Shown here: one piece after another, positions 10,906-17,830 of the stretch
Numbering within the stretch: position 1 is the first letter of the stretch
Layout of the letters: every line of letters starts with the position of its first letter
Assembly (NCBI GenBank): GCA_022824585.1
Contig: JAJDZN010000060.1
Coordinates: 1-35,542, forward strand
Direction: 5' to 3'
DNA: 35,542 bases
Origin: Bryobacterales bacterium
Lineage (GTDB): Bacteria > Acidobacteriota > Terriglobia > Bryobacterales > UBA6623
Position numbers and translations under genes: made by a program
The notes under the pieces: generated by a model
The model's input: the letters and a program-made list of their open reading frames with translations, nothing else
Told to the model about the DNA's origin: nothing
Database searches by the model: none

Positions 10906-11080
10906 CAGACGTCGCGTGTGACGGTTGGCAGATCCTCCCGCAACGTCCGGAAGCTGTGCAGCGCCGTGCGGTCCGCGGCAGGATCGGCCCGCTCACTTCA
11001 GTGTGATCACCACGACACGGAGCTTCGCCACGCTCTGCGGCGCGCTACACTGGCGACCAGTCGAACGGGGTTGTCTCAGA

Positions 11081-13951
11081 ATGTGTCGGGTATGCTGCGC
11101 GGGTTGCTCGCTCTTGCGCCCGCGCCGCGCTTGTGCGCTGGTTGTAACCGCTCTGCTCGTCGTCGCAGTGGTTCACGCGGACCCATTCTCGGTTCGTGTG
11201 ACATTTGGCTATGGCGACGCCCCTCCCGACCGCTGGGTGGGCTCGATCGGTGCTGACGCCGCCAGAATCGACGTACTCGGCGGCTGGCTCTTCGCCGGCC
11301 AGGACCGTATCGAGCTGGATTCGTTCGAGCTTGTCACCAAGCATCCCACACGGCCGGAACCCATTCGAAAAGGGCTGATTGTGCGTGGCTCGGCGGATCC
11401 GGGCGCGCGTCTCGAGGTCTCGACCGATCACGGCGATTTTTCGTTCCGCCTGGACGAGCTCCCGGCTGGGGGCGAGCTTGTGTTCCTTGACGGCTTGGTT
11501 CGTGTTTCCGGGCTGGTCACTGCCGAGAAGCTCACAGACGACTCCCGCTTCGACGACTATCCGTCGGTAGCCGTCGCCGCGAACGGCGATTCTTGGCTGG
11601 TCTGGCAGTCCTACAGCGGCGGGCGAGACGAGATTCGCCTGCGCAAGTTCGACGGGTCCTGGCGCACCTTCAGTCCCGTCCCGGGAGTGACAGGCGACGT
11701 TTGGCGCCCGCAGGTCGCGGTTCCCGCAGACGGGCGCCCGTGGGTCGTATGGTCTCAGCAGAGGGACGGCAACTTCGACTTGTACGCCCGCGAGATGGAC
11801 GAAGCGAGGAGCCGCTGGGGTGACCTGGTCCGGTTGAGCTCGCAACCGAACCCGGACATCGAGCACCACGTCGTCGGGGACTCGCGCGGCTGGCTGTGGG
11901 TGGTGTGGCAAGGGTTCCGCGACGGCGATTCGGACATTTTCTTGCGATTCCATGACGGCTCAAGCTGGTCACGAGAGATTCAGGTCAGCGAGCACCCGGC
12001 GAACGATTGGGAGCCCCGGATTGCGGTCGACCGGCAGGGATTGGCCGCCGTGGTGTGGGATAGCTACCGCAATGGCAACTACGATGTTTTCCTCAGACGG
12101 TTCGCCGGCGGGGAGCTCGGTCCGCTCGTGGCCGTCGCGGCCACAGAGAAGTTCGAGGCCCACGCCTCCGTCGCGGTCGATCTGGACGGACGAGTCTGGG
12201 TGGCTTGGGACGAGGGCGCGGCGAACTGGGGGAAGGATTCCGGGCCAACGACCGATCCGCGCTGGATCGGGCGAGGACGGGAACTGTGGTCCACATGGAT
12301 CAACCAGCCCTCGTCTCCGGGGGCGCGCCTGTATGAGTCTCGCAAGATCAACCTGGCCGTTTTCGATGGCGCCCGCCGGATGGTGCCGCGGTCCGATCTT
12401 GCCGACGCGCTTGCTGCCGCCGGAATCCCTGATCATGACTTCCCTCAACTGCATGTCGATCCGGCGAGTGGCCGGATTGCGCTCCTGTTCCATCGCTGGA
12501 ATCATGTCCGCTGGACGGATAGCCTCGGCTTCCGACCGACGTATTGGGAACACGCTGTCGTCTTTCTTGAAGGGGACCGCTGGTCCGGAGTCCGCACGCT
12601 GCCCGAGAGCTGGGGTCGGATCTCGGCGCGAGCTGACGGTGCATTCGGCCCGGACGGGAGTCTGAGGGTCGTCTGGCCGACAGACGGCCGACTCGAGCAG
12701 CGTCCCGTTCGAACTGTGCGGGCGAACATTCTGGCGGCGCGTCTGGATCCTGCGGCTGGTCCGGTTTCGCTGGAACTTGTGCTCAGCGATCCGATCGATC
12801 CCGCCCCAGTTCCGCCGGTTCACCCCCGCGAGAGCGAGGAAGTCGCCGCGGTCCGCGCGTACCGAACTTCCGTTCGTGGCACGGAGCACCGGATCGTGCG
12901 CGGCGACCTCCATCGCCACAGCGAGTTTTCATGGGACTCGAGCGGGGGAATGGTGGACGGGGCCGTGTTTGACTTCTATCGCTACATGCTCGATGCCGCG
13001 TCGATGGATTTCGGAGCCGTGACCGATCACAACTCCGGCGGCGACAGCGAGTATTGGTGGTGGCTCATTGAGAAGACCTGCGATCTCTTCAATGTCCGGG
13101 CGGCATTCACGACGCTCTACGGATACGAGCGCAGTGTCGCCTACCCGAACGGGCATCGCAACATCTTTCACACCCGACGCGGCGTGCCGGTCGTGTCCTT
13201 CCATACCACGGCTGGCTTCGATCGTCCCCGTCCGACGGTCGCGGCCGGCCGCGGCGCGGTGCTTGAGAACGATACGAGACTGCTCTACGAATCGTTGCGA
13301 CGTTCGGGCGGGATCTCGGTGCCCCACACGACCGGATCCAGCATGGGAACGGACTGGAGAGACAACGACCCCGAAGTAGAGCCGGTGGTTGAGATCTTCC
13401 AGGGCGACCGCGTCTCGTACGAACACCCGGGGGCGCCGCGCGCACCCCGGTCCGCCGCCGACAACCCGATCGGGGGCTATCGGGAGGACGGATTCCTCTG
13501 GAACGCCTATCGCAAGGGACACCGGCTGGGAACAATTGCCAGCTCCGATCACTGGTCCACGCATATCTCATACGCCATGGTCTACACCGAGGCTCCGACT
13601 CGAGCCGCTATTTTCGATGCGATCAAACAGCGTCGGACCTATGGCGCCACCGACAACATCATCTTGGATTACCGGCTGGGCGAGCACTTCATGGGGGAGG
13701 CGTTCTCGACCGAATCCATCCCGCCTCTGCAGATCCATGTGCAGGGAACCGGCACCATCGCGCGAGTCGAGGTGATCCGCAACGAACGGGCAGTCTACGC
13801 GACTCGTCCCAACCAGCAAGACGTCAGCGTCGTCTACACAGACAACGATCCGCCTCTGGGCCGGGCGTACTACTACGTCCGCGTCGTTCAGGACAACGGG
13901 GAGATCGCTTGGGGCAGCCCGATATGGGTTGAGCGGCTGCAGGCGCCCTAG
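11081..13951 (+). CDS. Secreted DUF3604 protein: beta-propeller-like N-terminal region plus PHP-type metallohydrolase domain
   Basis: From the ATG at 11081 the product is 956 residues. I chose it because ACALVVTALLVVAVVHA, ending near residue 35, then forms a proper signal peptide; the frame is open further upstream. Residues about 130-560 contain repeated short strands of the type PSVAVAANGDSWLVWQSY, PQVAVPADGRPWVVWSQ and PRIAVDRQGLAAVVWDSY, which look like propeller blades. Residues about 600-920 are the DUF3604/PHP-like part: RGDLHRHSEFSWD (H611, H613), GAVTDHNSGGD (D649, H650), GYERS, ISVPHTTGSS and IASSDHW are metal-ligand motifs. Substrate is unknown; PHP folds are usually phosphoesterases or amidohydrolase-like enzymes. 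The N-terminal frame overlaps the integrase remnant's downstream region, so the start carries some uncertainty. Confidence 0.8.
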   Translation: MCRVCCAGCSLLRPRRACALVVTALLVVAVVHADPFSVRVTFGYGDAPPDRWVGSIGADAARIDVLGGWLFAGQDRIELDSFELVTKHPTRPEPIRKGLIVRGSADPGARLEVSTDHGDFSFRLDELPAGGELVFLDGLVRVSGLVTAEKLTDDSRFDDYPSVAVAANGDSWLVWQSYSGGRDEIRLRKFDGSWRTFSPVPGVTGDVWRPQVAVPADGRPWVVWSQQRDGNFDLYAREMDEARSRWGDLVRLSSQPNPDIEHHVVGDSRGWLWVVWQGFRDGDSDIFLRFHDGSSWSREIQVSEHPANDWEPRIAVDRQGLAAVVWDSYRNGNYDVFLRRFAGGELGPLVAVAATEKFEAHASVAVDLDGRVWVAWDEGAANWGKDSGPTTDPRWIGRGRELWSTWINQPSSPGARLYESRKINLAVFDGARRMVPRSDLADALAAAGIPDHDFPQLHVDPASGRIALLFHRWNHVRWTDSLGFRPTYWEHAVVFLEGDRWSGVRTLPESWGRISARADGAFGPDGSLRVVWPTDGRLEQRPVRTVRANILAARLDPAAGPVSLELVLSDPIDPAPVPPVHPRESEEVAAVRAYRTSVRGTEHRIVRGDLHRHSEFSWDSSGGMVDGAVFDFYRYMLDAASMDFGAVTDHNSGGDSEYWWWLIEKTCDLFNVRAAFTTLYGYERSVAYPNGHRNIFHTRRGVPVVSFHTTAGFDRPRPTVAAGRGAVLENDTRLLYESLRRSGGISVPHTTGSSMGTDWRDNDPEVEPVVEIFQGDRVSYEHPGAPRAPRSAADNPIGGYREDGFLWNAYRKGHRLGTIASSDHWSTHISYAMVYTEAPTRAAIFDAIKQRRTYGATDNIILDYRLGEHFMGEAFSTESIPPLQIHVQGTGTIARVEVIRNERAVYATRPNQQDVSVVYTDNDPPLGRAYYYVRVVQDNGEIAWGSPIWVERLQAP

Positions 13952-15441: not shown

Positions 15442-15686
15442 GGGCCGCCAGGGAAGGAGGGGTTCGAAGACCAGTCGCCGGGGATGATCTCCTGCCTCAA
15501 GAACAGCCACGATGATTCAACCCGTGAACGGTGTGGCGAGGTGCATCGACAACTCGCGACAAGCGCTGCCGGGACTCGGATCTCGTCACCAGCGTGCACT
15601 CTCGCCAAACTGCAGATTGGTTGGGAGCGCCGAGACCGCCAACCGGTTTTGCACGGCGTCCGTGGTTGCGCGACACTATTTGGGTT
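15442..15686. other. Intergenic, no gene recognised
   Basis: These 245 bp lie between the toxin remnant and the thiolase gene. Open frames exist on both strands but none has a convincing start or a recognisable sequence. They are probably eroded DNA from the same element, plus the thiolase promoter region. Confidence 0.5.
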
Positions 15687-16874
15687 ATGCGTGAAGCAGT
15701 CATTGTCGACTCCCTCAGAACCCCTCTTGCCAAGTCGTTCCGCGGCTCCCTGAACCTGACGCGCCCGGACGACCAAGTCGCCCATTGCATCCGAGCCCTG
15801 CTGGAGAAATACCCGCAGATCGATCCGCACGAGATCGGCGACGTCATTCTGGGCTGCGGCCAGCCCCACGGCGCGTCCGGCCACAATATCGCCCGCATCT
15901 CGGCCCTGTTGGCTGGCCTGCCCAGCTCAGTGGGCGGCACCACCGTCAACCGCTTCTGTTCCTCCGGCCTGCAGTCGATCGCCATGGCCGCACACCAGAT
16001 CATGGCCGAGGCCGAGGCCGTGATGTTGGCTGGCGGAGTCGAGTCCATCACGATGATGGTGCCTGACAAGTCGCCCCATCCGACGCTCAAGGAAACCACG
16101 CCCGGCGTCTACATGGTCATGGGCGTCACGGCCGAGGTCGTGGCGAGGCGCTACGGCGTGAGCCGCGAGGCCCAAGACGAATACGCCCTGCAGAGCCAGC
16201 AGCGCACCGCGGCCGCTCAGCGGGACGGTTTCATCAATGAGGAATTGGCTCCGATGCCGGTCACCCGAGGGATCGTCGACAAGAAGACCAAGCAGGTCGT
16301 CGACAAGCAGGATCACGTGCTCAGCGGCGACGAGTGCAACCGGCCCGACACGACCATCGATGGCCTGGCCGGCCTTCCGCCGTATTTCGACCCACACTCG
16401 GGCCAGGGTTCGGTGACCGCCGGCAACTCTTCGCAGCTTTCGGACGGGGCATCGGTGACGCTGGTGATGTCCAAGGAGCGCGCCGACCAGCTCGGCATCA
16501 ACTACAAGCTGATCTTCCGCGGCTTCACGACGTCGGGCTGCGAGCCCGATGAAATGGGCATCGGACCGGTCTTCGCCGTGCCGAAGCTGCTCAAGAACCA
16601 AGGCAAGGGCATCGACGACATCGACGTGTGGGAACTCAACGAGGCCTTCGCCGTGCAGGTGGTCTACTGCCGTGACCGGCTGGGCATTCCGAACGAGCGG
16701 CTCAACGTCAACGGCGGCTCCATAGCGGTGGGGCATCCCTTCGGGATGACCGGCTCGCGCTTGGTGGGCACGATCGCGAACGAGATGAAGCGGCGCAAGG
16801 CACCGCTAGGTGTCGTGACGATGTGCGTCGGCGGCGGGCAGGGCGCGGCCGGGCTCTTCGAAGGAGCTTGGTAG
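15687..16874 (+). CDS. Acetyl-CoA acetyltransferase / thiolase
   Basis: The 395-residue product has the normal thiolase length and all catalytic motifs. The nucleophilic Cys is in VNRFCSSGLQS (C91), the His in VGHPFGMTGSR (H350), and the second Cys in MCVGGGQGAAG (C380). Thiolases either condense two acetyl-CoA or cleave 3-ketoacyl-CoA in beta-oxidation. The sequence alone does not decide, and no beta-oxidation partner is adjacent. I chose the ATG at 15687, where the conserved MREAVIVDSLRTPLAKSFRG begins; the frame is open 52 codons further upstream, but that part is not thiolase-like. The gene converges on the peroxiredoxin gene, with a strong hairpin right after its stop. Confidence 0.93.
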   Translation: MREAVIVDSLRTPLAKSFRGSLNLTRPDDQVAHCIRALLEKYPQIDPHEIGDVILGCGQPHGASGHNIARISALLAGLPSSVGGTTVNRFCSSGLQSIAMAAHQIMAEAEAVMLAGGVESITMMVPDKSPHPTLKETTPGVYMVMGVTAEVVARRYGVSREAQDEYALQSQQRTAAAQRDGFINEELAPMPVTRGIVDKKTKQVVDKQDHVLSGDECNRPDTTIDGLAGLPPYFDPHSGQGSVTAGNSSQLSDGASVTLVMSKERADQLGINYKLIFRGFTTSGCEPDEMGIGPVFAVPKLLKNQGKGIDDIDVWELNEAFAVQVVYCRDRLGIPNERLNVNGGSIAVGHPFGMTGSRLVGTIANEMKRRKAPLGVVTMCVGGGQGAAGLFEGAW

Positions 16875-16952: not shown

Positions 16953-17465
16953 TTAGAGCTTGGAGCAGGCTGCGGCCGCGCCTGCCGGATCGATAGCCGC
17001 GCCGCCAGATTCGACGTGGGCGATCTTACCTTCCTTGTTGATGACAAAGGTCGTCCGGTTGGACATGTTCCGCTCGTTCAGAACGCCGAACTTCTTCGAC
17101 ACGGCACCGCCCTCGTCGCTCAGAATCGCAAACTCCAAGCTTAGCGATTCGGCGAATTTCTTGTTGGTGTCGAGCGGGTCGGTGCTGACGCCGAAGACGA
17201 CCGCACCGGAGTCGGTGAAGGTTTGGATATCAGCCTGATACCCATTCATCTCGCGCGTTCAACCACCGGTGAACGCTTTGGGGAAGAACGCCAGCACGAC
17301 GTTCTTCTTGCCCTTGAAAGAGGACAGTGTCGCATTAGAACCGTCCGTTCCAGGCAGGGTGAAGTCCGGCGCTGCGTCGCCGACGGCCAGAGCCGCGACC
17401 GCCCGCCCGGAGACGGCCACGGCTGCTCCGCTGAGGAGAACCGCGCGTCTTGAGAGTACGCTCAT
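16953..17465 (-). CDS. Selenocysteine-containing, Tat-exported peroxiredoxin (in-frame TGA = Sec69)
   Basis: A single minus-strand frame of 171 codons is interrupted only by TGA at 17261-17259. Before it lies a twin-arginine signal ([20 protein letters not shown]) and the AhpC/TSA start [16 protein letters not shown], ending [11 protein letters not shown]. After it comes [14 protein letters not shown], then [25 protein letters not shown] and [13 protein letters not shown] with the conserved Arg. The TGA falls exactly on the peroxidatic cysteine of the PxxxTxxC motif (P62, T66, U69). A hairpin of bacterial SECIS type follows 15 nt later. A possible resolving Cys is at 167. The ATG at 17465 has AAGGAAGG 7 bases upstream. 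Predicted role: reduction of peroxides outside the cytoplasm. Alternatives are a nonsense mutation or sequencing error, but the exact position plus hairpin argue strongly for selenocysteine. The genome must then encode SelA, SelB, SelC and SelD elsewhere. Confidence 0.88.
17225..17243 (-). promoter_or_regulatory. Predicted bacterial SECIS element of the selenoperoxiredoxin
   Basis: The mRNA sequence GGGTATCAGGCTGATATCC forms an 8-bp stem (one G-U pair) with the apical loop GGC. The stem starts 15 nt after the UGA and the first loop G is 24 nt after it. Known bacterial SECIS elements lie inside the coding region just downstream of UGA, with a small loop carrying a G in its first two positions, about 16-37 nt from the Sec codon. 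SelB with Sec-tRNA would bind here. Confidence 0.8.
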
Positions 17466-17472
17466 TGTGTTG

Positions 17473-17480
17473 CCTTCCTT
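17473..17480 (-). promoter_or_regulatory. Ribosome binding site of the selenoperoxiredoxin gene
   Basis: AAGGAAGG on the minus strand lies 7 bases before the ATG at 17465. It fixes the start so that the twin-arginine signal peptide is included. Confidence 0.75.
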
Positions 17481-17578: not shown

Positions 17579-17830
17579 CGGCTTAAGGGCTTGGCGGGCG
17601 TGGGCCGGATCCTGCCGCTGAGCGCCTGCCCGTCACGAAAATCGGATGTGGGGCCAGCGAGCGATGCCCGCCGCCATTGACCGCCGCCGCGGTCTCGGCT
17701 TACAATGGTCCTAGTGATCGCCTAGGGGGGCGTCGGTTCGTTTCGTGGTTTCCCCCTGCTCCCTCCTTATCCGAGCGGCTGCGCACGGGATGAATTGTTA
17801 CCCGCGTAGTCTCCGTTTGGCCTGAGTCCG

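Follow-up and report, generated by a model that had tools for sequence, protein, structure and literature searches.

Does a peroxiredoxin gene with a stop codon at its peroxidatic position encode a broken protein or a selenoprotein? The question is raised by a gene on the minus strand of a 35,542-nucleotide stretch of DNA (the window; contig JAJDZN010000060.1 of assembly GCA_022824585.1) from a Bryobacterales bacterium of the phylum Acidobacteriota. An earlier note on this DNA had described a single frame whose one interruption is a TGA at the peroxidatic position of a PxxxTxxC motif. This was confirmed, as the TGA at residue 69, in the context PKAFTGG-U-TREM, is the sole interruption in the 170 residues of the read-through frame. 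Translation with table 11 splits the gene into two open reading frames (ORFs) at 17259..17465 (68 residues) and 16953..17249 (98 residues). The Pfam domains AhpC-TSA (PF00578; residues 28–150, 1.2e-37, 129 bits versus a cut-off of 26) and Redoxin (residues 28–156, 4.8e-28) both span the TGA junction. From comparative sequence evidence, we conclude with a probability of about 0.85 that the gene encodes a selenocysteine (Sec) peroxiredoxin, with Sec very likely present in the protein. The coordinates of its features, including the ribosome-binding site that the earlier note had reported, are collected in Table 1.

Table 1. Features of the probable Sec-peroxiredoxin gene in the window.
Feature	Position	Strand	Remarks
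Sec-peroxiredoxin gene	16953..17465	minus	170 residues, Sec at 69; from homology and read-through translation
Ribosome-binding site AAGGAAGG, 5′ of ATG	17473..17480	minus	
ATG start codon	17463-17465	minus	
Predicted signal peptide, residues 1-24, twin-arginine type	17394..17465	minus	cleavage between AVA and A, read by eye
In-frame TGA, Sec69 codon	17259..17261	minus	peroxidatic position of PxxxTxxC
Bacterial SECIS-like hairpin	17225..17243	minus	8-bp stem 17236-17243 with 17225-17232; loop GGC 17233-17235
Codon of Cys167, conserved C-terminal Cys, proposed resolving residue	16965..16967	minus	98 residues after Sec69
TAA stop codon	16953-16955	minus	

The codon was compared across 61 genomes (the window's own and 60 relatives), the loci read being the stronger matches among those listed. 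Among near relatives, 57 loci were read and 53 kept. The four dropped loci all have TGC at the aligned codon and lie outside the 82 sequences counted below: L131 is the same gene as L074, while L132 and L133 (from G036) and L134 (from G032, with a Cys five residues after the active position) belong to other peroxiredoxin groups. L009 and L010 were not counted, being apparent duplicates of L055 and L053. A subset of 42 of the 53 (set A2) omits 11 loci, mostly near-copies, with L066 left out for its unsure start. The phylum-wide set draws on 51 genomes, besides the window's own, with a match, and one locus each was read from 29 of them. Of the database relatives, 27 loci were translated and 12 used in the comparison of Cys positions and in the tree.

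The homologues aligned at residue 69, a comparison the earlier note had proposed, carry either U or Cys, and of the 61 genomes, 43 have TGA here. Its occurrence is associated with that of tRNA-Sec (both in 41 genomes, TGA only in 2, tRNA only in 8, neither in 10; Fisher p 2.3e-5, in a test that counts related genomes as independent). Within genus g15, TGA and tRNA-Sec occur together in G027, whereas G028 has a TGC codon and gave no match to tRNA-Sec at 1e-10. Natural Sec/Cys pairs, this one with loss of tRNA-Sec, provide matched cases on why Sec is kept. On an unrooted 94-protein tree, 6 changes account for the Sec label, compared to 19.2 in shuffles; the Cys forms having a C-terminal Cys occur in three separate places among the Sec rows, and therefore Sec-to-Cys switches look likely. 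The earlier claim of intact sequence on both sides of the TGA also holds, as there is no other interruption and the nonsynonymous rate (dN) is below the synonymous rate (dS) on each side when the window gene is compared with six relatives. By this measure, the coding sequence after the TGA is under purifying selection. In 19 of the 72 sequences with a C-terminal Cys, another residue, mostly Val, replaces the P of PxxxTxxU with Sec retained (L067, L070, L137–L142, L148–L151 and others).

The hairpin of the earlier note, 8 bp with apical loop GGC and starting 15 nt past the TGA, is indeed present and resembles a bacterial selenocysteine insertion sequence (SECIS). Since folding energy alone is uninformative here, the support for it comes from covariation. 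A 7-pair core stem shows 90.2% pairing across 45 distinct TGA rows, although this stem was named from the window and near relatives after an RNAalifold run, a choice that favours it over slid versions. Two-sided changes occur at 5 of the 7 core pairs in TGA rows (matched in 1/500 shuffles), with a covariation of 0.239 (0/500). The same stem in 6 Cys relatives is 38.1% paired with no covariation excess. Gene by gene, the TGA rows keep 5–7 of 7 pairs (47/47 rows) and the Cys rows 1–4 (6/6 rows). Bacterial SECIS elements carry a G in the apical loop, and the corresponding position (alignment column 27) is G in 47/47 TGA rows. Of the 19 TGA relatives at greater distance that have a C-terminal Cys, 15 keep 6 or 7 of the 7 pairs.

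The host appears equipped to decode such a codon. The window's assembly (6.18 Mb in 341 contigs, 91.8% complete, 6.4% contamination) contains a tRNA-Sec with anticodon UCA above the Rfam cut-off, together with selB (372.8 bits), selA (517.9 bits) and selD (299.0 bits), each above its curated cut-off and each in an uninterrupted ORF. The earlier note had suggested looking in the host for selA, selB, selC and selD, and all four are there, so neither selB nor selC is absent. As all four occur in 10 of 10 same-genus genomes, a contaminant origin of these genes is unlikely. On this comparative evidence, SelB and tRNA-Sec, together with the hairpin that closely follows the UGA, would let the ribosome read this codon as Sec. 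The earlier proposal of a functional selenoenzyme thus gains support from the sel genes, the conserved TGA, and the hairpin, which shows covariation among TGA genes and is not retained by Cys genes.

A second tRNA-Sec-like gene with a UCA anticodon lies on contig C189 of the same assembly (L002:1321-1419; G+C of the stretch 62.2%). The 10 same-genus genomes have one tRNA-Sec copy each, and within the 61 genomes two copies are found elsewhere only in G053; the extra gene may be either a contaminant contig or a true additional copy. The selD match (L045:1390-3648) forms the C-terminal part of a 752-residue ORF, the N-terminal part of which resembles an FAD/NADH oxidoreductase by eye. Fusions of selD with such an oxidoreductase are known.

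Several observations weigh against a Sec peroxiredoxin. The sel genes are on contigs other than the window's, in an assembly with the contamination given above. TGA occurs without a tRNA-Sec match in G018 (81% complete) and G020 (64% complete); selA and selD are above cut-off in both, with selB above it in one and represented in the other by two partial matches below it. The folding energy of the window hairpin is ordinary (z −0.28), being equalled or bettered by 66 of 200 shuffles; RNAalifold, given the TGA set, retains only 4 pairs, and four of the 19 distant relatives (L152–L155) pair poorly in this register, with 0–3 of 7. Across the 7 codons of the hairpin, too few to be read on their own, dN is the higher rate in 4 of 6 comparisons, with 2–3 differences each. 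Finally, just 53 of the 72 C-terminal-Cys sequences retain the P of PxxxT.

If residue 69 is Sec, which residue resolves its oxidized form? Cys167, which the earlier note had not mentioned, is the only Cys of the window protein besides residue 69. A Cys at +98 to +101, counted from the active residue, is present in 53/53 near relatives, including the window, and none of these has one at +4 or +5. In the phylum-wide set of 29, this Cys lies between +97 and +105 in 19 sequences, every one of which has TGA and lacks a Cys at +4 or +5; the remaining 10 (6 TGA, 4 Cys) carry a +4 Cys and no C-terminal one. Over all the Acidobacteriota sequences read, a C-terminal Cys is therefore found in 72/82 sequences, a +4 Cys instead in 10/82, and a +5 Cys in 0/82. 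As the C-terminal and +4 Cys occur either-or, we propose Cys167 as the resolving residue. In the tree, the +4 rows make up a single branch (100/99), and the C-terminal-Cys rows lie inside one branch of 74 (100/94). Of the 12 database proteins outside the Acidobacteriota set, nine have a +5 Cys and three have a Cys at none of these positions. In the structure model (pLDDT, predicted local distance difference test, 86.9), residue 69 lies in helix 67–78 and residue 167 in helix 161–169. Against this putative role of Cys167, which is drawn from the sequence pattern, two Actinomycetota +5-Cys proteins fall, on a long branch, within the C-terminal-Cys branch.

The +4 sequences include a sister group (L157, L159, L160, L161, L163 and L165) with TGA at the active codon, the motif WFP[KR]AFT[GA]GUTxxC and no C-terminal Cys. 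Members of this group have leader-like N-termini by eye.

Alternatively, the enzyme could be of a 1-Sec type, with Cys167 structural or otherwise employed and Sec69 resolved by a small thiol or a redoxin, as in AhpE. The best fold matches of the window protein include AhpE, which carries the title of a 1-Cys peroxiredoxin and is second by sequence, after the archaeal peroxiredoxin 2ywn; PMC8945050 reports that mycothiol or mycoredoxin reduces AhpE. We regard this as a possible but somewhat improbable reading, since Cys167 is the sole other Cys and the Acidobacteriota sequences without a C-terminal Cys have the +4 Cys in its place.

Where the enzyme would act is suggested by its N-terminus. Twin-arginine signals combine [S/T]RRx with a hydrophobic leader and AxA. 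The window protein has SRR followed by a hydrophobic stretch and AxA, and tatC is present in the genome, in keeping with the twin-arginine signal peptide of the earlier note, which is of that type by eye. Twin arginines lie inside the first 12 residues in 14/14 of L048–L061, hydrophobic leaders are seen by eye in many distant relatives and in relatives lacking them, and the structure model has low confidence for residues 1–22, as would fit a leader. Export of the protein from the cytoplasm is thus likely, as far as sequence features can indicate. Against it, the window's tree branch of 23 rows includes 9 without twin arginines (L108–L111, L143–L147), and just 18 of 53 leaders overall have them. 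The protein might instead remain cytoplasmic or membrane-attached, its N-terminus being an uncleaved leader or anchor; the cleavage site is judged by eye only, and the same-genus paralogues L108–L111 lack the arginines and have an atypical N-terminus. We consider this unlikely in view of the SRR, hydrophobic stretch and AxA of the window protein, the leaders of its distant relatives and the low model confidence at its N-terminus.

These same paralogues have TGA at the same codon and a C-terminal Cys; no paralogue of this type was found for the window's assembly among the matches listed.

Decoding of the UGA as another residue, by a suppressor tRNA or a tRNA-Sec charged with Cys or Ser, would yield a Cys or Ser enzyme. 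Anticodon and hairpin alone do not prove the amino acid, and the UCA-anticodon gene on C189 offers a second tRNA. We hold this very unlikely, given that selA and selD are above cut-off in uninterrupted ORFs and that some relatives have a Cys codon without a kept hairpin, which is hard to explain if UGA already meant Cys. A pseudogene or a miscalled base, to which a single stop in an otherwise intact gene and a fragmented assembly might point, is in effect refuted by the conservation of TGA across separate assemblies, the purifying selection downstream and the covarying hairpin.

For the Sec enzyme, we propose an extracytoplasmic, AhpE/BCP-like peroxidase forming a Sec69–Cys167 bond. The precursor, with its twin-arginine-type signal, would quite probably leave the cytoplasm folded. 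Outside, Sec69 in the PxxxTxxU pocket would reduce peroxides, as expected from the family. With somewhat better than even odds, Cys167 of the C-terminal helix would then resolve the selenenic acid, and the resulting selenenylsulfide would be re-reduced by a thiol donor outside the cytoplasm.

The core of the enzyme is already known, as the earlier note had said of Sec in the peroxidatic place. Sec-containing peroxiredoxins (TxxU) make up a published family of bacterial selenoproteins, described in the accessible parts of PMC1794560, PMC1088965, PMC13188914 and PMC9312934, which make no mention of a signal peptide or periplasm for it. Among the papers listed by searches of the open-access literature, no exported Sec peroxiredoxin was seen. 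Like TxxU members (COG1225/PF00578; e.g. PrxU of Eubacterium acidaminophilum), the window protein has Sec at the peroxidatic PxxxTxxU and an AhpC-TSA domain, its gene has a SECIS-like hairpin with a loop G, and its host has selA, selB, selC and selD. Unlike PrxU, it has in addition a C-terminal Cys and a leader of the export type, and it scores 54.6 bits against the NCBIfam model peroxi_PrxU (NF040737), below the curated cut-off of 270 bits. As to the earlier note's expectation that automatic annotation would overlook the gene, none of the 18 NCBIfam models listed reaches its own cut-off. The C-terminal place of the probable second redox residue, together with the leader, seems to make this a variant not yet described.

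Its PKAFTGGU fits the AhpE signature PxAF(T/S)xx(C) of PMC5302317, which also gives Val or Ile just before the peroxidatic residue. Unlike AhpE (M. tuberculosis Rv2238c), Gly precedes the active residue in 72/72 C-terminal-Cys sequences, and the window protein has Sec, a leader and a conserved C-terminal Cys. PrxQ/BCP proteins are relatives in sequence and fold (3drn, Foldseek rank 1; 5epf; 3hjp). They differ in that a +5 Cys is present in 8 of 11 Cys relatives read from other phyla, whereas both the +4 and the +5 position lack a Cys in the window family. In human PRDX5 (Prx5 type), the resolving Cys is near the C-terminus, about 104 residues on; this spacing resembles the 98 of the window, which may therefore work alike, although Prx5 is not among the matches listed in fold searches with the window protein model. 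The position of the resolving Cys varies among PrxQ, according to PMC5302317.

For Acidobacteriota, 4 selenoproteins are counted in the available part of PMC1794560, and 3 known ones are given for one genome in that of PMC12013277. The present gene adds a well-supported conserved selenoprotein and suggests the use of selenium against peroxides outside the cytoplasm in these bacteria. We see an even chance that exported Sec peroxidases of AhpE/BCP-like fold extend across the phylum, with the resolving Cys either in the C-terminal helix (the window family, with a Sec69–Cys167 selenenylsulfide outside the cytoplasm) or at +4 (the sister family).

The gene stands alone, with a convergent thiolase (15531-16874) on one side and, on the other, a series of genes running divergently, for SRP54 (ffh), ribosomal S16, a KH protein, RimM, TrmD and L19. 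A phage link was dropped, as tblastn against phage gave 20 records, all with <60% identity. Further along the window, an ORF of 1008 residues (10925-13951) has no Pfam match at 1e-5. A promoter and terminator scan gave nothing on the strand of the Sec-peroxiredoxin gene; on the plus strand, a sigma-70-like site (TTGACC-18-TACAAT, 17677-17706) precedes ffh, with 1 found versus 0.1 expected.
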